From Sphagnum magellanicum (Eukaryota > Streptophyta > Sphagnopsida > Sphagnales > Sphagnaceae), in NCBI GenBank assembly GCA_021904315.1, contig CM038912.1, positions 15,525,061 through 15,589,060 of the forward strand: a stretch of DNA of 64,000 nt. The letters are read 5' to 3'. This document shows, piece after piece, positions 1 to 59,477 of the stretch (the first letter of the stretch is position 1; each line of letters opens with the position of its first letter). Position numbers and translations under genes: made by a program. The notes under the pieces were generated by a model. The model had not been told where the DNA came from. It saw only the letters and a list, made by a program, of their open reading frames with translations, and ran no database searches.

Positions 1-12
1 TTCTTACCATTC

Positions 13-2210: not shown

Positions 2211-2357
2211 GGCAGACGAACTGGCTCAAGTGTGAATGGGGATGTTGTCATGAAGTGGCGAAATCTACCTACGAGAACTGGACACGTGTAGTGTAGCATT
2301 TGAATAGCTGGCCGTGCACAGTTGTCATCATCTTGGCCCTTGGCCCTTGGCCCTTAG

Positions 2358-2650: not shown

Positions 2651-3109
2651 CCGTAACGTCCAAGGGACGGCTCAGATGTTACCAAGGCGGACACACGGAT
2701 GCAAGTAAGCTGCGATGACGGTTCAGATGTGCCGAATACGGACACTGTGGAGGACTAGGAGGCAATGCAAAAGATGGAAGTTAGAAAGAAGGGCGGTGAG
2801 GAGTAGCATATTCCGCCGTAGAATGTGGGATATGTTCCAGACGATGATGACTCATCACTTGGACCCCAAGCGGCGTCGCTGCGCGCAGCGCTTCTCACGC
2901 GTCGTCGCGGGCGACGAGTGTGTCGTCCGTCCTCCGTCGCGTGAGCTTCTTGGAGCCTACGTTTGCCTCCGCGAACTGCGAGTCTTGTGAACTGCGAGTG
3001 TCCTTTCCGAACTGTTTACAGACATTCTGTTGCCCCCAATTGCAAGACTCACAGTTGTGTGCATATCCGATTGCCGGTATCTTCGTCGGCAGCTTCGAAG
3101 ATTTCCGCC

Positions 3110-3116
3110 TATAAAG
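3110..3116 (+). promoter_or_regulatory. Probable TATA box of the AP2/DREB gene
   Basis: TATAAAG lies in a locally GC-rich stretch. A start of transcription about 30 bases downstream (around 3145) would leave a leader of about 400 bases before the ATG at 3546. The following (CT)n tract fits a plant leader. No transcript evidence is available. Confidence 0.55.
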
Positions 3117-3157
3117 CTGCATCGACTCGACTTTTGTTCATTTACAAATTCTAGTAG

Positions 3158-3160
<3 letters not shown>

Positions 3161-3192
<32 letters not shown>
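3161..3192 (+). repeat. (CT)n tract in predicted 5' leader
   Basis: An almost pure CT dinucleotide run about 50 bases after the TATA-like box. Pyrimidine tracts near transcription starts are common in plant genes, and similar sense-strand CT tracts occur before the PLATZ gene and the 62-63 kb gene in this window. Confidence 0.85.
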
Positions 3193-3194
<2 letters not shown>

Positions 3195-3545
3195 CTCATC
3201 TGCTTTCTTACCTTGACTCTCTCATCATTTGCATTTTAGGATTGCGGTTGTTGAGTTTTTTGGTACCCAATTTATTTGTTTGTTTGTAGCACACGTTGTT
3301 TGTTGTTGTCCAATCTTCTTCCAGTTAAGGTCTGCCTGCGTCTTGCTTGGGTTGGTTTTGTTGTGAGAAGAGATAAAGCAAGTGAAATTTGGGTTGAGAT
3401 TCCTCGGAAAGGATTTGAGATTTCTGGGGGTTTAGGGTTTCGAGTGTAGTGAAAAGAAGTGGGTGCTGGTGATTTGAAGCTTTGATCGCGTTGAAGTTGT
3501 AGACAGTCTTGTGAAGCTGCTCGGGAGAAATAAAGGTTTTAGTAG

Positions 3546-4580
3546 ATGGTCGAGAAACAAAGAACGCAAGCAGCAGCGAGCCGGCGAGGGGAGGCGAAGC
3601 TACTAGGGACGCGACCTGTGAAGAAGCAGGGAGTTAGCAAACATGGCGCGAAAACGGGTCCCGAGTCTTTGTCGTCGTCGTCGCCATACAGAGGAGTGCG
3701 CATGAGACAATGGGGGAAATGGGTATCTGAGATTAGAGAACCGAACAAGAGATCGAGGATTTGGCTCGGCTCCTTCCCTACAGCGGAGATGGCGGCTCGT
3801 GCTTACGATGCTGCTGTCGTCTGCTTGCGAGGACCATCAGCGCCCATGAATTTCCCCAATTCTCCCTCTCTTTCACTCCCCTTGTGCAATTCTCCCAAAG
3901 ATATCCAAGCTGCTGCCGCTGCCGCCGCCGCTGCAGAGGAGCAGCACTGCAGCGGCAATCTGTTCTCGAAACCGGTTGCTGCAGTTTCGCTTAGCGCACA
4001 GTTAGAAGACATTGATCGGCTTCCCGCGTCGTCAAGTCCTGAACCTGCCGAGTCGCAAGCATCAGGAACTACTACTTCTGGCGAAGAAGTCTGCATGTTC
4101 AATACGCGCTCCAGTGATGCGGTGATACTATCTGAAAATTCTGATCTCGAATGTACTACTGAGGAATCTGCAGATTCACGTCCGGTTGAACAGAAAGATG
4201 TGAAGGATCATCAATCGGTGGTGAAGCAGCAGCTTGACGAAAACATGGAATGTACTGGGGAATCAGCAGCACCGGCAGGGATGATCATCCCTGTAGAAGC
4301 AGCAGCAGCAACAGGAGCAGTGCTGGTTCAGCAACTGGATCAAGACGATAGTTTTCCATTGGAATATTCAAGTATGTGGGATCTTGGAATGGCCAGCACG
4401 GATGATCTAGAAGAACTACCTTTTCTAGATTTACCTCCTCTCCTTGATCTCGAACATACTCAACAGCAGGAGCAGCAGCAGATCTTTGGCTTTGAAACTG
4501 ATTCAGCCACGCTTGAGTTCACTGATCTCTGGCCGGATCTCATGGATTCCAAAGATTTGGACTATGCCAGCTTGTTGTGA
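3546..4580 (+). CDS. AP2/ERF-domain transcription factor, DREB-like
   Basis: Intact single-exon gene of 344 residues. One AP2/ERF DNA-binding domain spans about residues 48-105. It contains [18 protein letters not shown], then [18 protein letters not shown], the family's conserved beta-sheet and helix blocks. WVSEIRE with RIWLG is typical of the DREB branch rather than the ERF branch. The N terminus is basic, as for a nuclear protein. A polyalanine run follows the domain near residues 117-126. The C-terminal third is acidic and Gln-rich ([19 protein letters not shown], then [10 protein letters not shown]), as in activation domains. The start at 3546 is the first ATG of the frame and leaves the domain whole. 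DREB proteins bind DRE/CRT elements (CCGAC core) and act in stress and developmental responses; the exact subgroup is not decided here. Most of this class lack introns. Confidence 0.95.
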
Positions 4581-6510
4581 TTATGGATGATGATGATGGA
4601 GTAAGGGGGGAAAATATCCAGCAAGAAATTGTAGGCGATCCAAGACCATAGTTGATGGTGAAATCTGCATTTTCAAGTTGCAAAAATCTCTCTGACAGCT
4701 CCTGTGATCCTCAGAGAGTGCCAGAATCTGAAGCTGAGTTTTCGGCATTTGAGAAAAGAATCTGGCTCAGGGGTGGGTGGCTGGGTTGGTGGGTGAGTGG
4801 GTGTGCGTGTGTCTGAGGTGCCCGCCAAGCTCAACGACAGCAAACAACAACAAAACATCAAAGAATCTCTCTAGAAGCAACAACTGGAGAGACAAGATTG
4901 AGAACTTGGGCCTGCAAGACATGAAATGAAATGAAATGATTCTGCATTCCACCACCACCACCCACAAGTAAGGTACTCATGGAACATCAGTTTTCCAAAA
5001 AGTTTTCCCAACAGTGTCCACAATCGAAAGTTTCTGGCTATAATAGATATATAGATAGATAGATAGAGAGAGACATTTACACAATGATCATCATCATCTC
5101 AGCACCATTTTGCTGATCATGATTTAGAAACACAATTTTTGATGATTGACAAAATCAATCATGACAGAATTAGATTTTTTTGGTCTGTCACAAACAAACA
5201 AATAAACAACAAAACAAGCAATCTGCTCATTGAGAATTATGGCAGAACTGTTTTGTTACATGTACAAAAGAAAACTAGACCAAGTAGTCCACAAATGTTT
5301 TTTTGTGAACTGAATGTCAATTTTGAAACATGAGGAAGAAGGAGATTGATTATGAGGACAGATTGTGTGTTGCTCCTTTGATTGTTTTTTGCTGCATCAC
5401 ACTTATATTAACGACGTGGGTGGTGATCACAGACCAACATTGCACTTAAACAAATGAGCTATGCACTCATATGTGAGTGGCAAACCACTGATAAAAAAAA
5501 ATCATTCAACTTATCAAACAGAAGTGTTTGGTAATGGGGGTTCAGGGGTGCATTTTTATAAAAAAATTGTCTCACTGATGGAACCAAGTAGCTGTACTAG
5601 GGTGTAAAGCAGCCCAACAAACAAGGTTATTGCAGCCCACTTTACAAGCAATAATTGTTTGCTGGTGGGTCATTTAAAGCAATGTTTAAAAGATTTAGGG
5701 TTCTTGAGTACAAGCAATTTTTCAAGTGCCCCAACAAGGTCTCAACACTTAATACAAAACAAAATCTTTGCATCCCAAAAGATAACAAATAAATGACTCT
5801 AAAAAACATGTACATTTGTACAAGGGCATTAGATTTCAGCCAAAATTAAAAATTACAAACTCTGTAAATCATATTAGAAGGATACATTTCAGAACTCAAA
5901 AAGCTTCTCAATTTTCTTGAGCATCACTGCAAGAATGTCCTCACTATCCAAGGCTGTAGAAGATGAAGTCTAAAGTTTCATAGAGTTTATGTTTCTCAGT
6001 TTTAAAGCATTTAGAGGAAGGGGAGATGAAATTGAACCTACTCTAGAATCAAAACAAGGGTTAGGACATGTGAAAAAAGCAAACAACTCACAAGATTGTT
6101 GCATACAAACAAGTGTCCAAGATCAACCCACATAAGCATCATTTGGAGGAATAGTTGGAAGAATAAGAACATCTAATGTAGATAAGCTCTACCAAGAAAA
6201 TTTCAACAAGTACCTATATTATCGCTGGATCCAACAATCTACAATTCCTAGATTAGTAAGGAGATCAAATAACTCCGGTTCTCACAGAGTTCAACAAGTT
6301 GCAAGGCATCATAATGTCAAATACACACCAACAACCTACACAATAACCACAGATGTCAATTTAGAATGTGGTGACTTTGAAAATTTCTATTTAACAATTT
6401 CTTTTAACCCATCTTTGGAAAGTCATGCTCTTGAACATTATGCAAATCTAACCCATTTTTTACAATCTTTGGATTCACACAAGAGGTTCAAATATATATG
6501 TCTTATAAAA
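4581..6510. other. 3' flank and AT-rich intergenic DNA
   Basis: The first several hundred bases are probably the 3' untranslated part of the AP2 gene. They contain a GT-rich tract near 4770-4812 and a GATA microsatellite at about 5045-5072. Beyond about 5,400 the DNA becomes AT-rich with only short frames. No further gene is seen. Confidence 0.5.
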
Positions 6511-6801
6511 CTAGATTAAACACCCCAACTTGCTAGAGGCTAGGACTAGGAGCCAAGGGATTAGCGCCATGATGTCCATTGTACCTCGCAAGAGATGAAA
6601 TAACTTGTAGGACCAACAATCTACAAATAAAGAAAACATTCCACCAACAATTCCAACACAAGCAAAAAAACTAGTAAGAGTCAACAAGGTTCCTAGCTTG
6701 ACACAGTGAAGAAGATGGACAGCCAATGTGCTAGAAGCTACAATGGATGCAATGGAAAGAGAACAACTATCTTTGAAGAAAGCTAGCAAATTTTTGCACA
6801 T
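6511..6801 (-). CDS. Small hydrophobic ORF of unknown status
   Basis: A 96-residue frame, unusually hydrophobic, with two or three possible membrane spans (for example LLTLTSFFACVGIVGGMFSL and DIMALIPWLLVLASS). An in-frame stop lies about six codons before the first Met, so this would be a complete small protein or a single exon. The order of spans is loosely reminiscent of the PEX11 peroxisomal membrane family, but I find no decisive motif. It sits just before the dead pogo-like element and may be element-derived or chance. Confidence 0.2.
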   Translation of the reverse strand: MCKNLLAFFKDSCSLSIASIVASSTLAVHLLHCVKLGTLLTLTSFFACVGIVGGMFSLFVDCWSYKLFHLLRGTMDIMALIPWLLVLASSKLGCLI

Positions 6802-7199
6802 ACTACTATCACATCCCTTTCAAATCACTTGAATGGGAAGACAAAATCAAGAAAGCAAGGGCCACAAGGTGTGCTCACAACCTAGGAGGATGAAGCAGTT
6901 GTAGCTTGGATTTTGGGAATGCAAGAACGTGGACTTTCAATCACCTTTCATTAGCTCAAAATGAAAATAGTAGAACTAACACAAACCAAGCCCACCCCTT
7001 TCAAAAATGGAATTTTAGGGAATTCTTGGTGGTACTGGTTCTAGCACCAACATCCAAAGCTAAGTATTCAACTTGCTAAAGGATTAGGTGTCTACAAAGC
7101 AGAGGGTCTCACAAGCCAAGCATGCGACATTTTTTACTAATATCTACAAACACTTTATACACAACACAAATACAACCTTGATCACATCTAGAATTTAGA

Positions 7200-8400
7200 T
7201 GAGATAGGAATCCATGCAGGGTGATAGTTAGGGTCAAAAGTATTGGCAAGAAAAGGTTCCAATCAAGTTTACAACACCATTCTAAGGTCTAGGGATTAGC
7301 TAACAGTGAATTGTGTTGTTAATATAATAGGAGATTGCCTACCATGTTTCTACATCTTTAGAGGTGATCGGATTAGGGATGACTACATCAAACTATGCAA
7401 AACAAGTACATGTATGGCAATGCAAACCAAAGCATGGATGACATCTTTCCTCTTCAAAAAATTTCTGTCATTTTTCAAGAAGTCAGTTATTGGTGAGATT
7501 TCTCAATCTAATCAACATTTCTTAATTCTAAATAAGCATGGATCACATGTTATGTTAGAAGCAATTGCATAAGCACAAGAGTTTGGTTTAAATATGGTCA
7601 CCTTACTAGCTCACACATCTCATGCTCTACAACCCTTAGATGTAAGTTTTTTCAAGCCATTCAAAATTGTTTTTAGGAAAGAAAGAGACAATGCAATGGT
7701 CAAGAATAATTACTATGAACCATATAAGTGCACATTAGCTAACTAGGTAGACGAGCTTGGACCAATCATTGACCCAAAAAAATATCAAGAGTGAGTTTAA
7801 GTTTATAGGAATGTGGCCTCTAAATCCAAAGGCAATGGATCACAAGATTAGGCCATCTAAAGTCTACACAACAACACTTACAAACATCTCAAATGAAGAT
7901 AATGAAGGTTCTGATGATATAACTAATGAGTAAGAGTAGTGGGGAGAAAATGCAATTACTACACAATTGATGAACATAGCAGCAACATTACAAGAGCTTG
8001 AAACTCCAAAAGCAAATGAACATGAACAATTAAATGCAATGTATTACTTGGAGGAACCTAAAAACCCTATTGCTACAGATGTAAATGGTAAAACATAAAT
8101 GATCTATGATCTAATTGTTGATGCAGATGGACCTACAATTGAAATGCAACAAGTTCATCATCTTGTAGTAGCAGCCTAGGAGCTAATATCTTTTGCAAAT
8201 TTACTCTCCTTACCACATCTACCAACAAAGAAAACAAAAGGGAAAGAACTATTAGTGGACTATAGCTAGTCATATGTTGTAACATTATGTGAATATTCTA
8301 GCATTTTGTAACAAAAAGCCTTAACCAAAGAAGCAATATAAATAATTAGACAACAAAAAAGGGAAAAAAAAGAGGATAAGAGGGCCTAATGAGTTGTTGA
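7200..8400 (+). pseudogene. Dead pogo/Tigger-like DDE transposase
   Basis: Conceptual translation shows family blocks in order: SKVLARKGS near 7230, DCLPCFYIFRGDRIRDDYIK near 7330, then HFLILNKHGSHVMLEAIA near 7520-7570, and HTSHALQPLDVSFFKPFK near 7610-7665. These match the DDE_1 endonuclease core of pogo/Tigger/Jerky-type transposases. Active relatives usually read LD before GHGSH. Here the position is Asn (codon 7531-7533), removing a catalytic Asp. Several stops break the frame (after EAIA, and in the C-terminal part). A Lys-rich tail, RQQKREKKEDKRA near 8350, matches the basic end of such proteins. The element is therefore immobile. Its N-terminal DNA-binding region and terminal inverted repeats were not found. 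Confidence 0.8.
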
Positions 8401-8689
8401 TTCTTTACTCTGGTTAAGAGAACAACTCAAAAGCTATTAGATAGGTGAACAAAGGCAACGTTCAATGCAAATTGGTTTGTAGTTGTTGTAAAAGAAACTA
8501 AAAATAGGTTTCATAAGAACTTTACAACTAGGCTAAGAACACATCCTTTACTATATAGAGGGGTTAACCTTGGCTATGGAACATAAACTCAAAGGGAGGC
8601 AAGAGCAAAAGAAGTGCTTCAAATGAAAGCTAAGGGGCATGTTGTAGTAAAGGTGCAATGACCTTTCTCCCAATGATTTAGATTGCCAA

Positions 8690-9470
8690 TTAGGAAGGGG
8701 GTTGAGGTTTAGGGGAAGGAAATAAATAAGGCTAAAAAGAGGGTGGCAAAGCTCAAAGAGTTGGATCACTAGGAAAGGGACAACAAAAAACTAAAAATAG
8801 GGTAGCAAAACTCAAGGAGGAGGATCACCAAGAAAACGATGACCAAGGGGGGGGGAGGATGGTAGCAAAGTTCAAGGATAAGGATCACCAAGAAGGGTTG
8901 GCAAACTCAAAGAAGATGACCACCAAGAAGATGACCAAGGAGGGGGGAGGAGGGTGGCATAGCTCAAGGAAGAGGATCACTAGGAAGTGGACAACCAAGA
9001 TCGAAAACAAGGTGGCACAACTTAAAGAGGAGGATCACCAAGAAATGGATGACCAAGACCAAGAAAAGGGCAGCAGTTCAAAGAAACAATCACAAAAAAA
9101 AGGATGACCAAAACCAACAAAGGGGCTCTAAAGCTTAAGGAGACAATCACCAAGGAAAGGACGACCAAGACTAGGAAGAAAGTAACACAATTTAAGGAAA
9201 TGAACATCAATAAAGGGACGACCAAAACCAAAAAAAGGGCAACAAAGCTCAAGGAGATGATCACTAAAAAGGGAACAACTATGACTAGGAAGAGGGGAGG
9301 TAATTCAAGGAAATGATCACCAAGAAGGGGATGACCAAGACCAAAAAGGGGGCGACAAAGCTCAAGGAGATGATCACCAAGGAGGGGACAACTAAGACCA
9401 GGAAGAGGGCGGTAAAGCTCAAGGAGCTATATCACCAAAAAGAAGACAAACTCCACAAGGAAGGGGATGA
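8690..9470 (+). repeat. Degenerate ~57-60 base tandem repeat after the transposase
   Basis: Variants of AAGGAG-ATGATCACCAAG-AAGGGGACGACCAAGACC-AGGAAGAGGGC recur about a dozen times. Clear copies begin near 9249, 9305 and 9361. Translated, they give Lys/Thr-rich frames such as TKTRKKVTQFKEMN. The array continues directly from the Lys-rich transposase tail, so it may be an expansion of that coding segment. The short frames in it are not considered genes. Confidence 0.7.
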
Positions 9471-9479
9471 ACTGCTCCA

Positions 9480-12400
9480 GGACAAGCACTAAACCTCAAA
9501 AGTTGCCACATATCATCATTGGAAAAAGATGACTAGAAGAGAAGCAAAAATTCACTAACACACAACTTTCTCATGCAACCATATTTGCACACAAATCACA
9601 AGAGGAATGAGAATTTTCGTCCAATGCACCAAACCAAAAAAAATAGTAGTCTTGGAAAGGGGATGAAAATTGTTGCAAACATTGAACAGCCATGCCAGGA
9701 AATGAAGCTTGGGAGCACATGCTCAGTTAAACTGACTGTAGAAAGGATCCTAGCCTAAACCCAAAACCCTAATAGGTGACATTGCTTGGTTTTTTTGGGT
9801 TATTCAAACATGCCCTTACCCATAACCATAGATTTTTATAACCATTTTTTTTAGAGATCTAAACCAATGGATTATTGGAACCATTTTTACAAAAAGAATA
9901 AATTGGTTTTCAGTTTCATCTAGTTCATCCATAAGTGAAAGTTCATTCATTTTCCAAATACTAAACATGCAATTACAAGGTGCAAAGTGTTTGTGAATGG
10001 GGTTGGCAAGTGTTTGTTATTTTTTTTCCAACAATCGTAACCCATGTGCCTTTAGGAAGGCATATGTTAGTCATATCTCCACCAAATTCAATGATCTAAG
10101 TTGCTATAGGTGCGCCCAAAGATGGGGACACATTTTGTCTTCAGACCTTATGACCAAAAAAACACTGACCAGTGAACCACATTTAATTTAGTCCTTATAT
10201 GTTTGGTTACTAGCTTGTCTACCCTAATGAAAGAATAATAACTCATTGACCTTATGAGAATTAATGTTATATGTGAATTTTCATGGCATTTGAAACACAA
10301 ATAAGATTGAAGGCACTAAGATATTATGTGCCCTTTTGTCTTAACCCTAGTTTTTTGACACAATCAACCTTTTTAAATATAACTAGAAAGCTATATTAAA
10401 AAATGAAAATGTTAAAGTCAAGTGTTTTTTTCAAGATTTTCAATAGTTAGAATTTATTTTTCTACAAGATGGCTATTTTTTTAAATGAATAAATATATAC
10501 ATACATACATACTACATACATACACATGCATATATGTATAATATCCCAAAATGCACTAAATCCGATATCCAATTTTTTATTTATTTTATTTTTTTGTAAG
10601 GCATATTCCATCTTTAAAAGAGTCTACATTGTATAGATTTTTTTAAATGAATAAAATGATTTTTGCAACTTATTATGCAAATTAAACTTTAAAATGATCA
10701 ACAAAGTCTTTAACAAATTGTTTGAAGCTTTTAGTCTCTTAACAAATGCAAATGTCTATAAACAATTATCTCAAATAGTGAGTTATCTTTTTAACTTACT
10801 AGATCTCAAAATGCAATTCCATTGCAATATTTACCACAGGTCAATTTCCCAAAGAACTTCCCAAAACTAAAGCCCAAACATCATCAACCAAGGTTATAAA
10901 ACATGCCTTGGGTCAATAGCAATATTGACATGTTAATCAATTAATAAACTCCACTAGAAGGCAAAATTGTGTTTCACATTTATTTTCAAGAAATATTGCA
11001 GTTCAACTTGCCAAAATATTCAACAACATTTTATTTCAAGTTTTTTTCTCAAAAGTAAGTTTCAATTAGTTTTGTCATTTTCATTTTGAGCTATTACAAG
11101 ATAATTGAAAGTCCACATTTTTGCATACCCAAAACTCAAGCCATAAGCATTTGGTCCTCTTCATTAGTTAACACACCTTGTGTGCCTTGTTTTTATAATC
11201 TTGTCTTGTCATTGAAGTGATTTGGAAAAAAGGTTATTGGTATCTACAAAAACATGTTTGCTTTTTTCAACGAGGTCAAAATCATTTTCCATTTAATCCA
11301 TTTCTTTTTTCCAAGGTCTAAGTTGTCCATCTTCGTTGTTGGGTTTGTGTAGGAACCTTTTTCATTCTTCCTAATTTGTTTATTTATGCTACACTTGTAG
11401 GTGGGATTTTTTGCTTATCCATTGTTGATTGTTAGTGTAATTCACTTTGTCACCTATAAGATATATTAAACATTATGACAACCATGTACCCTTTGACCCT
11501 TGCCTCCAACAACTTGGGTGGATCTACTTGGAACCTACAAGAGGCATGAATTTAACCTTTTATATGTTTTTCAAGGCTTCAAAAAATGTGTTAGGTTTGG
11601 ATAATTAAGGGATGCATGACTTTTCAAAGCTTCATTATAAGAAATTATTACATAGAAGGTTGCAAAGTCATCCTACACTAAATTGACATCTATAATTGAT
11701 GTGTACATTATAGGTGTGAACGTTTAAACTTCGCTTAATTGCAATACAAAAAATCTAAATTGGGATTAGATTCATCTAAACTCCTTGCTATTTTTCGCAC
11801 TACATATTGTTGGATCTAACACAATATAAATATTTGTTGTACTTTGCATAATAGAGTTTATTTACATAACAACTTCCAACTTTTACAACTAATACTTATC
11901 CAAGTTGATCTAATAAACTTGCTTATATTTCATAATCTTGTGAATGGGCTCTTATTTTGACATGTCCTTCCCTTTTTCTTAACTATAGATTTGTTTTCCT
12001 CTCTTTTACACACCTTTCCAACATTTTAGCCTTAGGACATTAAAGCTTTAAAAAAACATTGAAAGTCATTAACACAACCTTAGAATGTTTTGACATTCTT
12101 TGAAAAGCTTGAAAATTTATTGAAATGGATATTACTTTTCTAGTTAACTTGTAATTGAAATGCATGATAATTTTGGTGGGAATCCAATGTGCTTATAATG
12201 GGAAGAAGTTGCATGCTTTGTAGGGTCATTAATGTGTTTTGTGTTGGGATGTAAAGATGTTAATGTGAATTGAGTGTTGAAGTTTTGTTTGTGTAATCAG
12301 AAAGTTGTTTGTACTCAAAAACTTTAAATCTTGTAATTATGCATTAAATCACCCTCATTACCAATCAAATCTTTTGTGTGAAGTGTGAAATATAGATTTA

Positions 12401-26720: not shown

Positions 26721-27848
26721 ATGGCAGGCCTGCGGCCTGATCATGAGGAGGTACTAGTACTACCATGGTTGGGACCACTACTGCAGACGGGGTTTTTCGG
26801 GCACTGCAGAAACCACAACTCCATAGGGAAACATGAGAGAAACCATTTCTGTCTAGAGTGTCATGGGTCTGCAGGTGCCTTGTGTCCTGAAGGCCTAGGA
26901 GAGAATCACAAGAACCACTTAAGCCTGCAGATCAGGAAAGCTTCACACCGAGATGCAGTGAGAATTTCAGACATTCAAAAACTTCTGGACGTCTCCGGCA
27001 TCCAAGCCTATACTATCAACAGTGCCAAGATCCTGTTTCTACAAAGCCGGGCTCAACAACCCCAGCAACAGAAGCTGCAGAAGAGCAGCAGCTGCAGCAA
27101 GGGAGGAGGAGGGGTGAGATTCAATTGTGAGACTTGTCATAGAAGCATTGCTGATCAAGTCAGGTTCTGCTCCATCAACTGCAAGCGCTTGGCTGTGGGG
27201 GATTCTAACTTAGTAGCTCCTGCAGCTCAAGATCAGCAGCAATTTATAGACCATCCCAGCTCCCACCACCTCAATCTTGCTGCATGCTCTAGTGAAGATT
27301 ACAGCTTGTTGCAGTTCCATCCAGGACATGATAAAATTACAAATGTTCAAGGCAGGAGCTTTGAATCCTCAAGTACTGAGTTGCAGCAGGTACCGAAATT
27401 GATCACCAGTTTTAGAGACCATGCTCGAGCCTGGCATGAGCTGCAAGCCTACAATTCGATGCGGACTACTACTACTCAGGCAGAAAATTCTCAACTATGG
27501 ATGCAGGATCAGTCTGGGGCAGCGTCAATGCAGAAGAAGAGGAAGAAGTTTTGCAGTACTCCTCATGACCATCCTCATCAGCAGCCGCAGCAGCAACTAC
27601 ATGAGCTGGGATCATCTAATTTTCTCTTGACATCATCGCCCATGTCAGTGCTTGCTCTTCATCATCATCATCATCAGCAGCAGCAGCAGCCTGCGAGTCG
27701 AAGCTCGCATGAAAACTCTTGGTCCTGCAAATCTGATCTCAGTCCAAGAAGCTTTTTTGGTCCTTCCACTCCCCCAAGCATAGAAGAGGCAAGCTCAAGG
27801 ACACATTCCAGAAAACAATGCCATCCTCACAGAGCTCCCCTGTTCTAG
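26721..27848 (+). CDS. PLATZ-family zinc-dependent DNA-binding protein
   Basis: Single uninterrupted frame of 375 residues. The PLATZ domain covers about residues 16-160: PWLGPLL, FFGHCRNH, ERNHFCLECHG, HLSLQIRKAS, DIQKLLDVSGIQAYTINSAK (about 84-103), then FNCETC and RFCSINCKR. Likely zinc ligands are C29, H32, C44, C47, C55, H63, H66, C136, C139, C150 and C154. The family usually has a Cys three residues after C55; here it is Gly (CPEGL), so one ligand seems missing. The C-terminal half is low complexity with a His5-Gln5 run near residue 315. PLATZ proteins bind A/T-rich DNA and generally repress transcription. Angiosperm PLATZ genes usually have introns; none is seen here. The start is the first ATG upstream of the domain, after a long leader. 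Confidence 0.93.
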   Translation: MAGLRPDHEEVLVLPWLGPLLQTGFFGHCRNHNSIGKHERNHFCLECHGSAGALCPEGLGENHKNHLSLQIRKASHRDAVRISDIQKLLDVSGIQAYTINSAKILFLQSRAQQPQQQKLQKSSSCSKGGGGVRFNCETCHRSIADQVRFCSINCKRLAVGDSNLVAPAAQDQQQFIDHPSSHHLNLAACSSEDYSLLQFHPGHDKITNVQGRSFESSSTELQQVPKLITSFRDHARAWHELQAYNSMRTTTTQAENSQLWMQDQSGAASMQKKRKKFCSTPHDHPHQQPQQQLHELGSSNFLLTSSPMSVLALHHHHHQQQQQPASRSSHENSWSCKSDLSPRSFFGPSTPPSIEEASSRTHSRKQCHPHRAPLF

Positions 27849-30395: not shown

Positions 30396-30690
30396 ACAAG
30401 GAAATTTTATTAAATCTCAGTGGGAAATGCTGAAACTCAGCATTTAATGCACAAGGTTCGAGAGTAACCATAGTAGTTAGTTTTACAGGTCGGAGCAGTG
30501 AAAATATATGTAGCAGCACTGATGAGCTCAGGAAAAAGGAAAGACAGGATGAAACTCAGTTTACCATCAAAATTGGTGGAAAATTTAGTTTGCATCCCAG
30601 TTATTTCGCTGTCTAAAATTTTCATTTCCGGTTACACGTTTGATACCCTATTATGCCGAAACTGGATGTTCTAGGCCCTTTAGTTCTTGC
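30396..30690 (+). repeat. Dispersed repeat, copy A (upstream of large gene)
   Basis: This stretch matches 58,152-58,410 in the same orientation along roughly 260 bases. Shared exact phrases include CAAGGAAATTTTATTAAATC, CAGCATTTAATGCACAAGGT, GAAAATATATGTAGCAGCA, GAAACTCAGTTTACCA and CCCTATTATGCCGAAACTGG. It ends about 220 bases before the start codon of the large gene. No coding capacity or clear terminal inverted repeats were seen; it could be a MITE-like or LTR-derived fragment. Confidence 0.8.
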
Positions 30691-30908
30691 CCACTAATTG
30701 CGAGAGTTTTACAGAGAACTCTAATGTATCACATTTTAGGGTTTGTTTGACCTTATTTGGCGCCAAAAAGAATTTGGTTTGAATTTCTTCATCCTCGTCT
30801 CCACAACCCCCAATGACAAATTAGGGTTGAGAGCTTTGTGTTTAGAGAAGGAAGAGCTCTGGGGAGCAATTTAGGGTTTGGTGCTTTGTGGTAAAACAAG
30901 GAGGAGCT

Positions 30909-33900
30909 ATGGCGAGCAGCAGCAAGAGCGGTGGGGTGTTGCCTTGGCTGGAAGGGTTGCAGCTTTCATGCCAATCGCGTGCGTTGTTGCCCCTTACCGA
31001 CGTGCTCCACTCTCTCTCTATCCTGGCCTCTTCTTCCTCTTGCATTCTCGCGTAAGCTCCTTTACCCTTTCCCCCCCTCTTTTCCTTCTTTTCCTTTCGA
31101 CCTCTCACCCCATTGAACCCGTGAATTCTCTGTAAGAACTGCTTGGTGATGTTTGGAGAGTAGTAGTACGGCCAAGAAAGTCTCCAATGCTCTTGGACTC
31201 TAGGTTCAAGGAAATTCAGTTGGTGCATTATGTAAGAATTGGATTTCACTTCTGTGAACTGCAGAGCTGTGAAGAAGGCGCCATCGTTGCACTGTTTTGT
31301 TGCCCTGCAGGACATAACATGTGCCTCACCTGGTAAGATTCTTGTTGCTACTGTTGACGAAGAAGCAATTTATATTATTTGTGTGGACTGGGGTTAGGGT
31401 TTAGGGTTTAAGGGTCTAGGTCTCCTTACCAAACTTTGAGCTGAAAGGTTAGCACAATTCTCTTCTGTCTCAATCTGTGGAAAAGTGGCATTTGCTTTAG
31501 GGTTTAAGGGTCTAGGTCTCCTTCCCGAGCTTTGAGCCTCACATGATTTGTGTTTGAGCTGAAAGGTTAGTACAATTTTCTTCTGGCTCAATTCTGTGGA
31601 GAAGTGGCATGTGAACAGGTGAAGGAGTTGCTCGGCTTCAGGAACTGGAAGAAGTTCAACTGCGAATAGTGGAAGCTCTTTGTACAAAGGAAGATGGACA
31701 GCCAGCTGCCATAGTTAGCTGCCGGATTGCCCTTCGGACAATACTCTACCATTACAACACCACAAGGGTGGAGTGCTCTGATGCAAAAAAGAAACACTAT
31801 TTCTTATTGCTACTCCATAGATAAGAACTGCTGTTTGTGGTCCAATTCAATGACAACCTTATGTAGAGAAAACCACCCTCAACTACGTACTTTTGTGTTC
31901 TTTCTCCCAAAATGCAATTTCTGTATTTGTGCAAACTAACACATGATGACATTTGGAACTGCAGATTTCAGTGAAGGCAACTGTGATGCTTCTCTCTCAG
32001 TCAGCAAAGCTTGAGCATTGGGACATTGCCAAGCTTATTGTAGCTTGTCTCTCTCAGGTGATTTGCTCTGCTCTTTGCACATTGCTAGTTTTACAGATAG
32101 AAGAGTCCACGGGGGTGGCAAAATGTGTATCTTTTACACTCCTAAGTGATGATCACAAGCCCCCCCAAGTCCTTTTGATTTCCTATTGCTGCAGGGTTTC
32201 TTCTGTGATCATGGTTACAATAGTGCTTTACCAGTCTGTGAGGTTGCAGCACTTTCAAGATGGTTCCCTGTCATCCAAGGACACAACATCATGTGCTGCA
32301 AGTATTGAGCAGACCAGAGCTATGTTCACCCGGTATTTGTCTGTATGCTCCTGCAGCATTTAAATGAAGTTGCCTTAGGAGAATTGCAGCAAAAGGTGTT
32401 GGCCACACTGAGGGACTCACTTGTTCTTCCGAGAATCTGGTAAGCATGCTAGGTTGGGCCTATTGGCATGTTTGCTACCTTTGTTGTTGCCATAAGGAGG
32501 GGCAGGAAGACAAGGTACCATTGCTGGGAGTAGCTATGAGTCTGTTCTTGCTAATGCTTTTTCTGTTTTCAGTAGCCTGCAGGTGCTTTTGGAGCCATTG
32601 CACAAACTGGTGTTTCTCCAGCTGAGTGCATGGATGCTGGAAGGAAGCCCACCAATAGACACTGCTTTGCCACCCCCAATCAAGTGGTACTTGCGGTTTT
32701 TACATAAATGTTTTGTTAAAAGCAGGGGAGAGGGGAGCCCTAACCCATGTGGTCAAATCACATCAAAGGATCTACAGTTTTTGTTTTGGCCTTTCTTGTC
32801 CACTTCTGGTGATCACGAAAGTTCCACATCAATGAAGATTTCTGACAGCCATGGAAATGGAACCCCCTTACACTCCAACAATGCACATGTGCAACAAGAT
32901 GAAGAACTGCAGCAAGAAAATTTGACAGGAGAAACATCCTGGTGTTTACAATATGGTGTTGAGTTTGCAAAATGGAGAGACAAACTGTGCACTCATCTTT
33001 GTACTGATCTCAAGGTGCGTTGGCACTCATTTTTCTTTCTTTGGGTTTTTAAAAAATCTGACAATACCAACAGAAAGATATTTGCCAATCTTTGTGCTCA
33101 CACGTTAGTGATTGCATCCATGTCTTGTGAATACAGATACCAATGGAAATTGCAGTAGGAGACCCAAATGCTCATAAAGAGAAGAAATATAACTGGCTCC
33201 CAGCTTCAGACTATTTACTGAGCCCAACAGAATTTATCCACCTGCACAACTTGCTACTCCACCATAGCAGCCAGCCTGAAGAACTTGAGTTGGGTCTAAA
33301 GAGAGGTTTGATGGTACGATGGCAGATCTAACTCACCTTTCTATGCATTTTGTTAAAAACAGTTTTCGGAGTGTTCTATCTTTTTTTGAGGGAACAGATG
33401 CTTTTTTCTGTTTTTCCTGGTCTCATGGGCCTCGTGGGTCTAGGTGTGGATGTTTCCAAGGCTTTGATATTTGCCTTCATCATGAGCCTCTCAGTTTTCA
33501 GTGCATTTAACACAGTTTTGGCATGCTGTCTCCAGTGACTTCCTTGTTGCAATGCACACTATGTTTATGCTCACACTCGCTTGATTTTTGGGTTCAAAGG
33601 TCACATGTGAACCAAGCAGTTATGCTTACAGAACTTTTCTAGGTTTGATTGGTAAGATGTCTGCCATTTGTACCTCTTGTGCCTTTCCTGAGCTGTCGGT
33701 CAACTTGGAAATTTTTCGTTGCTTGTAGGATGGTCTGTCTTTGGGAACATCGACTGTGGGAATTGTGGTCACTTTGTTGGACATTTTGGCCCGGGAAACT
33801 CAAGCATGTGAGTGCTGTCATGCCCATGGAGGCAGTAACCACTCAGCTGCAGAATGCATTGGCAGGTGTTGTGGATGCAACCAACCTAGACATCAGGTTT

Positions 33901-36900
33901 TGACCAGTAAATGTCCTCACCTTTTCTGCTAGCACTTGCAAATGGCCTTAGATACCTAGAACATCTTGGGCATTGATGAGTTACTCTCATCGAAGAGGTC
34001 CCAGTCAAGGTTTTCCAGTTTTCTAGTGCACAAACTGCCCTCATACACAATATCAGTCCTCGAAGTAGTTACTCAAGTCAGATATGTAATTGCCCTTAGT
34101 GAAATTGCCACATGTCAATACTGCAGAAAATGCTGGGCTGCTCCTGTTGTGTCTAGTAAGGCGGTTCTCGAAGGAATGTGATGTTCTCTGGGTGTTCCTA
34201 GTTCAAAACCTAATAGTGGCTGCACCTACTGCCCGAGAAAATTTTGCATTAGAGAAATATGATCCAAGCTGCGAGCTGTTAACAGACAGGTAAGCATTCT
34301 CTTCATATACCTCTCTTTCCACATTCCTGAATGTCATTCTGTCGAGATTGACATTCCATGATTTCTGCATTTACTTTGGACTCATTATCCCCTCCTCATG
34401 CATGATGATATTTGTGAATTCAAACCTGTAGGGTTTGTGTACTTTTGCATCTATGCTCTTTGATGGTTGTACATTGTGCATGTTGGTTATCCAGGGTGCT
34501 CCCTTGTGTAGGCCAGCTTGCTGATCTTCCCATGCCAGCAATGCACTCTGTTCTACTCAGCTGCATCAAGCATGAGATTGATGCAGTTTTATTAAGGGGG
34601 ATGAGAGAACTTCTGCCTAATCAAGCTGAAGCTTTAGTAAGGAATTCTGCAGGCCCTTTTGGGTTGGTTTTTGAAAATTGGAGTTTGCAGTTTCACAAGC
34701 AACAGTGGCACTCCTGCAGGCCTCATGTTTACAGAGGAGACAGGATCTTTGTAGTTGGATTTCAAATCCAAGGAAACCTCATGTTGTTGTTTAGAAGTGT
34801 CTAGGCTGAGGGTTTGAAGAATGTTGGTACTATGTTGCAGAGCTGGGCAGAAAGGTCTGGAAGAAGACTAGAGCAAGTTATCTGGCCTACACTTGTAAAG
34901 CAGATTGATCAGCATCCCTTCCTGTTCGTGTATTATGCTTCTCTTGAGCATTTAGCTCTCTTTGGTGCTGGAGGCTCTGCGGAATTGAGAGGGAGTTCCT
35001 GCAAGATCTCAGGGGTTTTTCCTTGCCTGCAAGAGTTATCACCAGTGGATTTCATACGGATCACAAAGAAGGAGCCACAGTACACACTGCCTTTGCTACA
35101 ATTTCTGAAGGCAGGTAGGAGCATCAAAGTTGTGGAACAGTTACTGCATGGTACGTAACTTGTCTTGTCCTGTCCCTGCTGACTTGTAGGAATTTCCTTG
35201 TAGGGTTTCTTGCTCTAGTTCAATCAAATGCTGTGTTCTTCCTGTGATGAAGTAAAAAGTTTTACATGAGTTTTCAGGCTAAAAACAGTCCCTGTCTTTG
35301 ATTGCCTGGCCTGCTGGTTTTGTACTAGTCAGTTTGTAGTTGACTTGTGGAATATGGACTTGGTGCAAATCTACAGAGAAAAGGGGGCAACCTGCAAACC
35401 CATTTGTGCTGGATAAGCATGCTTTACAGCAGGAGGATCATGTGGCAGCGATACACCACCAACTAGCTCGTGAGCTTTTCTGTACCCATTTATCAGCTTT
35501 TGTCCTAATTGAAATGCAGATGAACTATGCTTTCTCTTTGTTCCATGTCCTAATGGTTTTAGATGACTGATTACAATTCATTGTGATGGATGTTGTTCAG
35601 TCCAACAAAACTCTGGACAGGGGGACCTTCAACTGGATTTTTTCTGCTTAGAAGTTGTAGCATTCTCTGGTGGTTCCTTCCAATGCTTTTTTGGCATGGA
35701 GCCTGGTGGTGACAAAGCAGCAATGGATAAGGACCACATTGGCATGGAAACAGAAACTTTTGAGGAAGACAGCAACTGGAAGAAACCTGATAAGAATGAC
35801 AGAACTCATGCTTTAGCATCATTTGAGGTGTGTGGGTATTACCTTCTTTGATCATGTTCTCAAATTCTGTTAAATGCTTTGGTGCAATGGTAAGAAGCTT
35901 CTTGATAATGTGCCAATGATCTCACAGGGTCGGCTTCTACTTGCATACCAACTTCAACATTGGACACAGGCATGTTATTGACACTCACACTGTGCCTGAC
36001 AGTTACCCACTTGCACCCGTGTTACTTCTTGTCTACACATGTGCAGCAGACATAGCATATTTTCTGTGTCTACCATGTCTTGTGAGAAGTTCTTGTTTTC
36101 TTCCTGAGATTCTTCCTGAGTAGATGGAAGTGCATGAAAGAGCTCAGATGTTGTGTCAATGAATGCTGGCATTTGATCCTTTGAGCAGCAGGGTGTGGGA
36201 GTCAGGAACGTCAAATTCTCATCAAAATTCGAGAGCCTCAAAAAAGTATATTACCATGTTCTTTGCCTTTACTGCATGTAAGCATTTTCAAGAGACACAC
36301 TGCACCTTTGAGCATTGCTTTGTAAGGTACATAACCTATTTCTGGAGTTGGATAACAATCACTAGCTCTTGAGCTTTCTAGACTGCACAGTGTATTCTTA
36401 TTTCCTTCCATTCTGGACTCAGCTATTGGTTTATTTCACAGATTTCCAGCAGTTGATGAACGGGTGAGTGCTGAATTGTCAGCACTAAAGCAAGTCTTAA
36501 CTCTATGGCCAGAAGAGAAAGCTCAGTGCAAAATGTTTCAGTCAAAGATGGGCCAGGTTCAATTCTATGCAAGCTCTACCCAGAACGGGATGTGTCATGG
36601 CAAGATTGTAAAAGAATGCATCCCAGTGCAGTAGTTTCCACAATGAGGCTTTCTGTGTGCAGTGTGGATGGGGTTCAAGAAAAATAAGCCTGAATTGAAA
36701 AATACTTCCATGTAAATGTGCAGGCAGAAGCCATACAACCAGCCAAGCGACCAAAGTTTGATTCCTTGCAACCAAGAATCCCTACAAATCTCTCACAGAC
36801 AGGAGAAGAGAAAGCGGAACCAGATTGGATTGTAGAGGCAATATGCCGGTCTTCTTGCAGCTGTATCCTCTTTCTTATCCATGCTCTAGTTTAGTGGGCA

Positions 36901-39900
36901 TGGCCTGAAAACACTTTCACATGAAATTGACTCTTTACTGGTGTTAGCTTTTATTATGATCCCATTTAGGGGTCCCTTACTTGTTAGGAAGATGTCTTGT
37001 CCTTGATCCTGGATATTCCAGTGGAGAAGCATTTGCAGCCATACTTGCGAGGGTTTGGCAAAAGGGACTTGGGGACAGGACGTCATTGCAACAGCAGCCA
37101 ACAGAATGCACCATCAAGTATGGAATCACTCTCTATTTTGACATTGAATATCTGAAACTGTTGGTTTAAGATTGAGATGTTTATCCATTGCTCTTGGTGA
37201 TGGTTGATTTTATGATTTGAACTTCTTCCATGCCAGGCCAGGTATCTTCACAGGGTGATACAGGTGCCAGGTCTGAATCATCACCACAGCAGACAGTTGT
37301 CAAGTACTTGGTTTCCAATCCATGCAAAATCCCAGCAATGGGTACATTTGCACAAAACCCGAGAGTGCTCAAAGTGGCATGGAAAGCAATTCAGAAGGTG
37401 CTGATGGTGACCAACATCCCAGCACAGACAGGTATGTCCCATCTTTGGCTCATGGTTGATTATCTGCAGTGGACTACATGTTATTGTGGATTGCACGTGG
37501 GACTGAAAGGAAGTCATCAGTGAGTGCAGACATAGATGTTTTGGAGCTATGGATTCAGTTTCTGGAGAATTACAGGTGCTTTATTTTGATCCCATGAGTC
37601 ACATTCTGTGGCATCTGCTTTTTGGGATATGAAGGCAGTCTTATTGTTGGTTTCTATTGATTTGCTAGCTCTTTGAGACATTAAATGGGCACTATGAATG
37701 TTTGTGTTTCATTGCAGTCATTTATTCTATAGCTTACTCTGAAATTGGTCTTGGGAGGTTCTTGCTTTGGTACAGAAATGCAGACAATCCAAGAGAAAAA
37801 ATTGCAAAGCTCATGGACAATGATCAAAGCATCCTTGCACCAATAACCCAGTATGGTAGTTCCTTGTCAACCTAGTCAAACTCACTTTGTGTTCTGATTA
37901 GTAACAAGTGCATGTCTGTGCTGAGGATGGTTGTTCTGTCTTTGCAGTGTTCTTGACCCCTTGCCCAATTGCAAGTTGGTCCTCAGATCTTATGGAAAGA
38001 GTCTTCACAACGTCAAGAGGGATTGTTCGGCGTGCATTTGGAGAAGCCTGGGAAAAAATTCAACACTTGTCAGCTGGAGAACCTGTCTCCTACCCACTCA
38101 TTGATGGTACATTGACAGCTTTTCTTAGGTTTTCGGGATGACATGTTCAATATAAAGACAAATATGATTGAGCAGACACATCTCCTGTACTATTGCAATC
38201 TGATTGACTGTGGCACATGATAGTCACTTTCACAAAGTAGTAGCATGCATGTGAAAATGAAGGTTCTTACATATCACCTTTTCTACTGTTTTTCTTTACA
38301 GCTGTGGTTTGTGCAGTGGTCAAGAATTCAGAGGCTGTGGCAACATTTTTGGAAGCAGAACTGTCATCTAGTAACTGTGTTGGATGCATCACTGTTGACT
38401 CTGAAGAGTTGGCAAAGAAAAAATTTATGAGCAAAGCTGGCATTCTTGATGTAAGGCCCCTGAAGGATCTTGTCCATTTGTCTATATCTCATTTTTCTAA
38501 ATGTCTGGAGCTGCTAATAGGAATGTTGATTTAAAGGTTAGTTGTATGCTGCAATGTGGGCCAGTTGCTCTCAATGGTATTTGCCAGCTGCAAACCAGAC
38601 CTGCGCAACAATGTTCTCATACACCTCAAGAAAAGTAACTTGTTCAGAATGCAGTAAGTTCCCTGCTTTTGGTGGCATTTTGACATGTGCAATTCACAAT
38701 TTAACTGTGCACATTGAATTTTGAGTGCACCTTTTTCTTTGAACATATCATAGTGGCCATTCATTATATTTCTTTCCATGTCATGTACCCACATCCTCAG
38801 CACATCCATTTCATGAAGTCAGTACATGCTAATGCTCCTGGCACCAGTAGGATATCTTTCATGTTTGTTGTCAACCTTTGTCACCTTAATGTGCTATCCT
38901 CTCTGTAGTTTGGTTCAGGACTCCAAAGAAGGCTCTTACACAATGGATCTAGGAATTGTTACTGAGGACCTTGATGAAGGTCTGGCTAAGCAAGGACAAC
39001 AGCTTGAGAAAGGCTCCTCCTACCTGCTGCCTCTGATAATGATGGCTGTCATTTTCTGGCATAGCAAGTAAGTTTCATTGCCCTCCTAGAGCATCCAATC
39101 CACAAATTCTTTTGATGTCTCACTCACTTGATCAGAGATCTAGAACACTAATGATATTCCACTACTTGAACTGTATTGATTTTCCAGGCTTTTGGATGAG
39201 GTAGAGATTTCAGAAAGGAGGTCAGCATGTATGGGTAAGAACTACTAACTTGCCCTGTTTGTGTTTTGCTTCATACACAAGAAAAAATTGGGATCATCAG
39301 AGGAGTTCTTACACACAAAATACAGCCCTATTCATAGGGTTTATATGCCTGTGTGTGTGGACAGGCAAGAGAGGCTGTGGTACCATTGGTTGAGATACAT
39401 CATGAAGCTTAAATATGTGTGCAGGAGTCTGGAAGTTAAATCCAACTGAACAGAGGGCACTCATTTGTCATATATTAGCTACCTCTCAGCCACCAACGCT
39501 TGATAGTCTGCCATGTTATGACCAAAGTCCTGCAGCAGCAATGACAGGGGCTTCCCTCAGTTCTAGCGAAGTTTCCTGTGAAGAAATGCTTTGCAAGGCA
39601 AGGCAACTTAACATCTCAACATGGAATTCTCTGCATGTCTGCTGCCTCAGTCATTTTATGTCCTGAATTGATTTAAGGTTTTATTGCTGAGACACAAGGA
39701 TGTGGTGGCACACAAATCTCAGAGGGACAAGGCTCATGACAGTCCGGTTTTCATGGCTCAAAATATCAATAGACTTTCTAGGTGCCCTGAATCAGAAAGA
39801 AGTTACAGATCTGATGTAGTGACTTGTGTATTACTGGAACAGCTTGAAGCAATTTTTCCTGCAGAGGACAAGCTCAGAAGGCATCATGAAGTGGTGGATT

Positions 39901-42062
39901 GGGTTCTCCTTTGCTGCAGACTTTGCATCAGGCATGCATCATTTGCCTTCACTAGATGACTTTGTCTAATCATTTCACTTTTTTTGATGCATTCTGGTGC
40001 TTTTTCACCATTCTTGGAAAAAACACTCACACTCAAGAGTTGGCTGCATCATTGGCAGGATGAACATAGCAAATATCGGGGCAATTTGCCGTCTTCATCC
40101 ACAAACAGTGCGGGACATATTAGTGCATCGCATTGATGAGGACTCAGATCAGGCTAGGATGCTGGGTGAAAAAGGTTCAAGCTGGTTAACTTGCCTGCAA
40201 GAGCTAAGCTCAGAGCTCTCAAATGGACTTTTGGCATGGCTTCCTGTGGAGGTGTGTTGAGTTATTCAGAAAAGCTCACAGAATCATACTTACCATTCTG
40301 ATGGGGTTGAGGTTTTAAATGTTGGAGGAAACTCCATCCATTGTCAAGTCTGGAGTGCCCCAGAGGTGCTGTCCAAAACTCCTAACTTAGTCAGTGGAGT
40401 TGAGTCCATTCACTGTGCATTTTGTTGTTCCAGGTTCATCTCAATTTCACAAACACGAACATGGCTATTCCAGGCACATTCTGGGATGAGACAAACTCAA
40501 GCAAGCTGGTGGAAGAGTTAGTGACCTGTTTGGCGAGTAGTGACTTAGGAGTACGGTGCAGCACCTATGCCTTTGTGGTTGCCCAGTGCCATCGACGGGA
40601 TTTCATTGGCCTCTTAGCTCATGTAACAAAGTTGACTCTCTTGGACATCAGGCTATCCCTATGTACCATTTCACAGTGCAGATCTATGGATACACTGAGT
40701 GCATAATTGCCTTCATATGACATTTAGGGACATAACATGCTGTAACAATTATTTATTCCGAGTGTTTTGCTTTTCAGGGACTATGTGAAAAGATTAAAGC
40801 AAGTGTATTGAGTGAGGAGCAGGAAGCTTTGCTTGGAATCCTAATCCCATGTCTCCTGCGCCAACCAATGCATCAATGTTCCAAAGGCCATCAGCCTCTT
40901 GTGTCAATCATCTTACAGGCTACAGAGAAAGCTCTTGGCATCCAATCACATATGAAGGTACCTGCATAGTGCTGCTTATGTCACTCCATGGTTTTCTGCA
41001 CATCACCTTAGCTTCTGTTCTGAGATCTCTTTCCTTAAATAGACCTTCCGTCATTCCTAGAGATGATTCAATGTTTTCTTGTTGCATTTTTATTCTCAGT
41101 TTCTTGTGTTGACAGCTTCCATTTGCATGGCTGGTGTGTGTGACAGGAGAGCCTGAAAACTGAGCAGCATGTGAAGGCATTGCTAAGGGTAATCCTTGTG
41201 GCCTGCCAAGCTTCCCCTGCATCTTTTGCACAAGGTCTGGTTCACATTCCTGTTGGCAATCAGTTCATGTGTTTGAGTTCCAAAGCTGATATTTGAGAAT
41301 CTGTGGTGAGCTAGTGCTGAGGGCCATGAGCCACCTGCACAGAACAAGATGGCCATGCAATGATATGAACAAGGGAATAGTGCTGTGATAAAGTCACACC
41401 TCATATATCTGAAGCAAGAGAGGATACTTTGCAACTATCATAGCAGATTGGATTTCATGCATGACATGATGACCTCTGTTTCTGTATTTTTCCCCCCAGG
41501 AATGATGCCAAGATTGCTCTTTGGTCTTGTCCTAACTGAAGAACTCAATGAGGAGGTACTAGTGGGAGCAATGCGCTGTCTAGTGGTGCTCAGTGCCCAC
41601 CTGCCAAAAACATCTGACATTGTGACACAGATCCGAAACCTCTTGCTTCATCTGTTCCAAAAACCTTCAGGTCAGTGTTATCATTTACTTTGGAATGGGT
41701 TCCATTTCTATATCCCTTCTCAATTTGATGCCTCTATGTGAGCTTTCGTTACACCTCACTCCTGCATCTTCTCTCTACAATGAATTTCAGGAGACTATAT
41801 ATGGTATTTGGCAATGACCTGTGGAGAGAGCATTGCAATGCATCTGTGCCCCATCCCCTCAGTCCCAGGATTTGGCCCAATTTCACCAGGAGACACTACA
41901 ATGGCATCCACTAGAACAGAAGGTTTTCCCACTCCTGACATAATACTGAAATGCAACAACAATCAAGACAATCTTGTGAGTTCACGGTTGTTGAAACGGG
42001 TCATTCCACTGAAAGGTTTGTTGTTTCGTTTTCATGCATTTTTAGCCAGCAGACCCGCATGA
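30909..42062 (+). CDS. Large multi-exon gene, unidentified alpha-solenoid-like protein
   Basis: Some 35 exons, nearly all phase-consistent. Exons: 30909-31051, 31265-31332, 31619-31767, 31965-32057, 32195-32439, 32573-33014, 33137-33313, 33729-33896, 34019-34076, 34127-34289, 34495-34636, 34841-35150, 35377-35481, 35601-35827, 35928-35969, 36293-36321, 36442-36556, 36724-36862, 36970-37117, 37271-37431, 37470-37575, 37718-37855, 37948-38106, 38302-38450, 38565-38653, 38909-39067, 39188-39234, 39425-39636, 39678-39931, 40059-40251, 40434-40622, 40778-40957, 41147-41234, 41500-41670, 41791-42062. This gives about 1,840 codons. Sequence is Leu-rich and helical (LGELQQKVLATLRDSLVLPR; NEEVLVGAMRCLVVLSAHLP), suggesting HEAT/ARM-like repeats. 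The length resembles RST1/FOCAD, but I found no decisive motif. An in-frame TGA lies at 32306-32308, and the 37575/37718 junction is out of phase. It may be functional with errors, or a recent pseudogene. Confidence 0.65.
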
Positions 42063-58151: not shown

Positions 58152-58410
58152 AAGCAAGGAAATTTTATTAAATCTCAGTATGAGATGCTGAAAGTCAGCA
58201 TTTAATGCACAAGGTTTGAGAGTAATTGTAGTCATTGTACAGGGAGGAGCAATGAAAATATATGTAGCAGCAGTGAAAAGGAAAGATGAAACGAAACTCA
58301 GTTTACCACCAAAAATTGGTGGAAAACCTAGTTTGGGTCCCAGTTGTTTTGTTTTGTAAAGTTACCTGTTTGATGCCCTATTATGCCGAAACTGGCTGTT
58401 TTCGCCCTCT
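58152..58410 (+). repeat. Dispersed repeat, copy B (upstream of eL28 gene)
   Basis: Second copy of the repeat at 30,396-30,690, same orientation. It carries the same phrases, from CAAGGAAATTTTATTAAATC to CCCTATTATGCCGAAACTGG. It is slightly shorter, with a deletion after the TAGCAGCAGTGA segment. It ends about 600 bases before the telo-box array of the eL28 promoter. Confidence 0.8.
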
Positions 58411-58994
58411 AATTGCATGACGTTATGGATAACTGTAATATGCACTATATTTTAGAATTTAGCAAAACTATATTATTGCTCCTGTAATGAATTGGTAAAT
58501 TTTTTTCCTTTTGCATTTATGGGGAACTTTGAAAGGTAGAAATCACAAATACAAACCCTCACATATGAAATGCTCTAGATTTTGAATTTGGCAAAACCCT
58601 AAACCTTGTTGTTGGTCAAGTAATGACTTGGTAACTTTATTTTTTTGTATTTATAGGGTGCACTATATTTAAATTTTACATATTTAAAATTTCAGAAAGA
58701 TTTCTTCCATCTCCAAAAATTACAATTTAGCTCTGAGAGAGAAAAATATTTCATTCTATTTAAAATTAATAGACCAAATGAAAAGACAAAAAAAAGAGCA
58801 AACTGAAAGTACCTCCTGAGGGTCAGAAAGAGGGAGGTAGCTGGAAAGATAAAGAAGGGGGGAATTTTTTTTTACCTGACCTATTGTTGGCAAGGGAACT
58901 TTAGAGTTCTCCTCACTGGGGAACGTTTCCTCTGTTTAGTTCCCATTGCTATGGGAACAATGATTTATTGATTAGTCACTGATCAAAATTTTCA

Positions 58995-59200
58995 GTAAAA
59001 GATGCAGTCTACATCTTTAGGGTTAGGGTTTAGATGTAGGGTTAGGGTTTGGACCTTAGAAGGTTTTCGAATTTCGGTAAAAGATGCAGTCTACATCTTT
59101 AGGGTTAGGGTTTGGACTTCAGAAAGTTTTCGAATTTCGGTAAAAGATGCAGTCTACATCTTTAGGGTTAGGGTTTAGATGTAGGGTTAGGGTTTGGACC
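58995..59200 (+). promoter_or_regulatory. Triplicated telo-box promoter array of the eL28 gene
   Basis: A 20-base phrase, TAAAAGATGCAGTCTACATC, recurs at about 58,996, 59,078 and 59,141. Each is followed by TTTAGGGTTAGGGTTT. Copies 1 and 3 have a second telo-box segment (GTAGGGTTAGGGTTTGGACC) that copy 2 lacks, explaining the 82- then 63-base spacing. Telo-boxes (AAACCCTAA or reverse) are known promoter elements of plant ribosomal protein genes. The array ends about 280 bases before the start codon at 59,478. Confidence 0.75.
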
Positions 59201-59477
59201 TCAGACTGTTGTCGTTTGTTTGTTTGCGCAGTCGCTTTGATCGATGCCTTTCTCGGTGTTGCAAGTGCACGCACACGTCCCATCTCCGCTGCTCTCACCG
59301 TCAGAGGTTGTTCCAACCTCTGGATGTGCTTTGCTATCTGTTTTCTCTGCGGACTTCATTCTGTGGTTAAAACCATTTTTTTTTTTTGCTTCCTATTTTA
59401 GCGTTTTAAGAGCTTGTGTTGGCCAAGGAGGGAAGAGTTGAGACTCACGAGTGATCAACGTGTTTTGGTTTTTAGGG

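Follow-up and report, generated by a model that had tools for sequence, protein, structure and literature searches.

A probable 34-exon gene of Sphagnum magellanicum with an E2F-type promoter site encodes a large leucine-rich protein distinct from RST1/FOCAD

We analysed a 64-kb stretch of the genome of the moss Sphagnum magellanicum (C6:15525061-15589060, one of 31 contigs totalling 438,994,042 bases), hereafter called the window; positions are those of the window unless a contig is named. Its forward strand carries, at 30909-42062, a single long spliced reading frame, which we delineated with a phase-constrained dynamic programme followed by hand curation. In its final form, the model comprises 34 exons, 33 introns and 1,689 codons, with no frameshift and no phase exception, and its introns (29 GT-AG and four GC-AG) range from 80 to 415 bases. 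We consider a real moss gene, and probably a functional one, to be the most likely explanation of the interval, judging from its sequence. An initial annotation had proposed one frame over the same interval, in about 35 exons and 1,840 codons, with codon phase agreeing at all junctions but one. The open model, the coding score and the shared stop codon at 42062 confirm the long frame, and the exon count stands at 34; the codon count had to be lowered, and the exceptional junction is no longer needed once a GC donor at 36837 is admitted.

The programme awarded each codon a bonus in bits and permitted frameshifts at a penalty. At bonuses of 0.1, 0.2 and 0.3, it returned 34, 35 and 40 exons with 1,565, 1,734 and 1,870 codons, respectively, picked no frameshift and ended at the stop codon at 42062; at a bonus of 0, the predicted gene had 35 exons and 1,293 codons and ended at 42069. 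Versions run earlier under more stringent splice thresholds had placed a frameshift near 36892, and further frameshifts appeared under lenient penalties. Because the codon model was weak, these first automatic models dropped likely exons and resorted to frameshifts. With a lower penalty on GC donors, the programme passed through the 36892 region without a frameshift (35 exons and 1,721 codons at a bonus of 0.2), and at a bonus of 0.1 its path bypassed exon 4 by way of an artefactual exon of zero length. The 36892 region also bears on whether the interval holds two neighbouring genes, divided near 36.9-37.2 kb, which we regard as unlikely. An earlier hand model had its sole phase conflict there, between 37117 and 37242 (absent from the final model), the earlier programmes placed their frameshift there, frame 0 is interrupted by a stop at 36892-36894, and exon 19 shares its frame with an ATG at 37230. 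However, the GC donor at 36837 lets the frame run through and the programme prefers that path, and two genes would be separated by an intergenic gap of only about 340 bp.

Coding potential was scored with an outside codon model, trained on 8 of 40 long reading frames plus the frames of two neighbouring genes (AP2, 3546-4580, and PLATZ, 26721-27848) and excluding the window gene; the eight frames were selected by eye alone to omit transposon-like ones. Under two settings, the gene scored 255.2 and 413.0, compared with means of 91.8 (standard deviation 22.9, maximum 148.6) and 175.4 (standard deviation 28.7, maximum 252.6) for 40 Markov controls. The reverse complement of the gene reached 174.6 and 285.1, exceeding the Markov maxima, and the Markov controls are therefore somewhat easy. 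For an earlier hand model (exon 16 ending at 36556), the outside-trained codon score was 237.6 in the chosen frame and 73.1 and 87.1 in the others. In that earlier hand model, the chosen frame also held one stop (the terminal one) compared with 86 and 87 in the other frames, scored best in 20 of 34 exons and had a codon-position base composition like that of the training frames. In the model preceding the last corrections, T made up 26% of bases in exons and 35% in introns.

Agreement of phase is true by construction in a constrained model, and it was therefore tested with the frames left free. With gene-aware codon models at bonuses of 0, 0.1, 0.2 and 0.3, 18 of 38, 21 of 38, 25 of 39 and 23 of 40 junctions agreed, compared with 23 of 80, 36 of 114, 51 of 131 and 57 of 147 in four control stretches under the same settings. 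A mixed codon model gave 21 of 36 junctions in agreement, against 33 of 98 in controls. With the outside codon model, which excluded the window gene, agreement was seen at 16 of 39 junctions (binomial p 0.20) and, under the second setting, at 21 of 40 (p 0.0096), and the corresponding Markov controls gave 424 of 1,223 and 572 of 1,585. The earlier assertion that such agreement is very unlikely by chance was thus too strong, with 16/39 to 25/39 junctions agreeing when frames are free; by itself, phase agreement is moderate evidence for a gene, and the coding score is stronger evidence.

The final model is not the raw output of the programme, as exons 2, 11, 16, 23, 24 and 28 were altered by hand. 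All exons lie on the forward strand. Exon 1 (30909-31051) carries the start codon, and exon 2 (31265-31332) was hand-picked where the programme favoured 31159-31231 plus 31311-31392. Exons 3 (31619-31767), 4 (31965-32057, left out at a bonus of 0.1 under the lower GC penalty), 5 (32357-32439), 6 (32573-33014, the longest of all), 7 (33137-33313), 8 (33729-33807), 9 (34157-34289, with an uncertain acceptor) and 10 (34495-34636) are those of the programme. Exon 11 (34841-35150) was altered, its acceptor being 34805 or 34841 and its donor 35114 at a bonus of 0.1. The programme also supplied exons 12 (35377-35469), 13 (35601-35827), 14 (35928-35969) and 15 (36192-36277). The end of exon 16 (36442-36556) was hand-picked, with same-phase donors also present at 36463 and 36607. 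Exon 17 (36724-36837) is again the programme's, the frame of exon 18 (36988-37117) was settled by the GC donor, and exons 19 (37237-37431), 20 (37530-37575), 21 (37776-37855) and 22 (37948-38106) follow the programme. Exon 23 (38302-38450) has a hand-picked acceptor (38302 or 38317), and exon 24 (38565-38653), also hand-picked, is uncertain, the programme favouring 38588-38634 or nothing. Next come the programme's exons 25 (38909-39067), 26 (39188-39234) and 27 (39425-39597), then exon 28 (39678-39931), whose acceptor was hand-picked (39678 or 39699). The remaining exons are again those of the programme: 29 (40059-40251), 30 (40434-40622), 31 (40778-40957), 32 (41147-41234), 33 (41500-41670) and 34 (41791-42062), which contains the stop codon and has an acceptor at 41869 at a bonus of 0.1. 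The four GC donors open the introns after 35969, 36837, 39597 and 39931, downstream of exons 14, 17, 27 and 28.

The initial annotation had also allowed for a very recent copy, a suggestion that the genome-wide searches did not support. When the N-terminal 840 residues were used as a protein query, all 17 matches among the best candidates scored fell inside the window gene; the single-copy status of the C-terminal half rests on a DNA search, which listed three places beyond the window, namely two fragments and a 42-base telomere-like stretch. The latter (C10:17140024-17140065) matches window 31382-31424, a telomere-like stretch within an intron of the model. The two decayed fragments, on C15 and C3, are 71% and 66% identical to the gene and upon realignment correspond to 35433-35763 and 35883-36540, intron included. 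Their substitutions are rich in G>A plus C>T (34 of 73 and 95 of 176), and indels are also present. Identity to the gene was 134/184 and 159/222 in exon and 106/129 and 280/393 in intron sequence, figures that are uninformative on selection. These fragments, together with four non-GT donors and several weak sites, are what could be expected if the window gene were itself a decaying pseudogene that is still intact in appearance. We hold this to be very improbable, given 1,689 codons without a frameshift or stop, whereas the fragments contain both indels and numerous G>A and C>T substitutions.

The predicted protein resembled no catalogued family. No match at cut-off was obtained with any of 24,736 Pfam models, whether drafts, a fuller model or revised segments were searched, whereas positive controls run alike were recovered (ribosomal L28e at 3e-35 and a moss RST1 stretch at 5.6e-61). 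Matches to PDB sequences were at chance level only (E 0.063 and 0.11 for a CHAD domain, 1.4 for a regulator and 1.4 for Nep1). The Pfam model HTH_Tnp_ISL3 gave E values of 0.038 and 0.091, under its cut-off, and was taken as a chance match. A search of the window against Rfam gave no matches at gathering score. Being missing from Pfam and PDB is not the same as being a new protein. The protein had been proposed to be a leucine-rich solenoid of the HEAT/ARM type; it is leucine-rich (13.6%), but the listings at E values up to 10 contained no HEAT or ARM profile, although such profiles are weak and the protein may still adopt this fold. HMMER filters discard most weak matches. The hydrophobic moment peaks at 100 degrees, 1.7 standard deviations over shuffles (3.4 for RST1; -1.2 and 1.1 for wrong-frame controls), and the composition is compatible with a helical protein. 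Exon 17 encodes PAKRPKFD, a stretch resembling a nuclear localization signal.

On length only, the gene had been likened to RST1/FOCAD, both being very large leucine-rich plant proteins of comparable length (Arabidopsis RST1 has 1,840 aa; PMC6711988). That the window gene is the moss RST1/FOCAD, or a recent paralog of it, now seems scarcely credible, and this identity was rejected. The sole match in the genome to PF12530 (Focadhesin/RST1, DUF3730 in Pfam) is at C9:11103303-11103935 (E 4.7e-52), within one 1,926-codon open frame, whereas this profile was unlisted for the window protein at E values up to 10, across drafts, fuller model and revised segments. Against a 1,211-codon stretch of the true RST1, the best blastp alignment of the window protein had an E value of 1.0 over 64 columns, and phmmer found none. 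Gene structure also differs, one open frame on C9 contrasting with a model of 33 introns in the window. The moss RST1/FOCAD gene thus seems to be near intronless.

The proximal promoter of the window gene contains an E2F consensus in the form of a perfect palindrome, TTTGGCGCCAAA, at 30756-30767, 142 bp 5' of the ATG. It is the sole match to TTTSGCGCSAAA in the 64-kb window (0 of 100 shuffles). The palindrome was missing from 34 of 36 fetched loci, 8 of these 34 being pieces of the window gene; in the remaining two, it is the identical window site. On the same strand as the gene, octamers TAGGGTTT occur at 30737-30744, upstream of the start, and at 30872-30879, immediately upstream of the ATG; we take these to be telo-box-like elements, and such octamers number 31 in the window. 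The tttggcgc-type motif about 150 bp 5' of the coding start recalls E2F/RBR targets in DNA repair such as AtBRCA1. In Arabidopsis, a segment of the AtBRCA1 promoter enriched for RBR and E2FA has two putative E2F motifs, one of them tttggcgc at -151 (PMC5412863). Unlike such targets, the window protein lacks any catalogued domain.

Other features surround the gene. A tandem pair of copies of about 50 bp (78% matches) spans the start codon at 30817-30918, and a roughly 290-bp element lying 5' of the gene (30397-30685) recurs with 77% identity at 58155-58414, upstream of a ribosomal L28e gene. The L28e gene, whose exons lie between about 59478 and 60601, was recognised by eye and then verified with Pfam, and repeats with telomere-like TTAGGGTTAGGGTTT units lie directly before it (58990-59214).

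Because of the perfect E2F site at -142, E2F/RBR would most likely drive the gene during S phase or in response to DNA damage. The stretch resembling a nuclear localization signal, together with the lack of a recognised domain, points to a nuclear scaffold, probably of stacked helices, which could act in DNA replication, repair or chromatin duplication. Together, the E2F site and this stretch suggest an S-phase or genome-maintenance nuclear protein; we infer its nuclear location, helical fold and S-phase role from sequence. Our reading is therefore a tentative one, to which we give somewhat less than even weight: a real gene, under E2F control, for a leucine-rich nuclear genome-maintenance scaffold of about 1,690 residues that is not RST1/FOCAD.

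Several observations weigh against this reading. A single promoter element, spotted by eye before it was tested, is thin ground for function, and the looser consensus WTTSSCGCS has three matches in the window compared with 0.84 expected, a count reached by 7 of 100 shuffles; two of the three are the two strands of the palindrome, and the third lies inside the AP2 gene. The nuclear localization-like stretch was likewise read by eye. The helix signal, at 1.7 standard deviations, is weak, and a single exon folded without an alignment gave an unusable model (predicted local distance difference test score 40.7). As for the gene model, a control stretch containing the AP2 gene (window 1-11340) beat the gene at a bonus of 0 (302.0 versus 277.6). 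GC donors normally make up about 1% of donors in plants. Four in 33 introns is unusually high, and some exon boundaries may be wrong.

Large HEAT-type proteins diverge fast, which could hide the family of the window protein from sequence profiles. It may thus be a divergent representative of one of the known families of large plant helical-repeat proteins that function outside the cell-cycle machinery (in transport, RNA processing, cilia and so on), in which case the E2F-type site would be incidental. Its leucine content fits such a family, and even the moss RST1, a protein described as ARM-repeat, is poorly matched by Pfam repeat models (HEAT models, E 0.057 and 1.6). Conversely, the 24,736 Pfam models yielded nothing at cut-off, and the best sequence match to a solved structure had an E value of 0.063. 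We regard this explanation as a serious possibility, though short of probable.

Within the reading as an E2F-controlled nuclear scaffold, a bolder version is that mosses possess an uncatalogued genome-maintenance scaffold that perhaps stands in for a partner that plants lack, such as MMS22L beside TSK/TONSL, a proposal that we consider highly improbable. The TONSL partner MMS22L is also a large protein and acts in replication-coupled repair. Pfam holds MMS22L models; the window protein differs in having no Pfam match at cut-off. According to PMC9409234, an MMS22L ortholog is seemingly not encoded in plant genomes.

Our analysis corrects the RST1 lead for this locus. If expressed and conserved, the gene would represent a moss protein of about 1,700 residues that is unrecognised by Pfam and has a promoter pointing to DNA replication or repair. 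Mosses are prized for a high rate of homologous recombination (described for Physcomitrella; PMC1079823), which would make an unassigned gene bearing an E2F site of interest for knockout.

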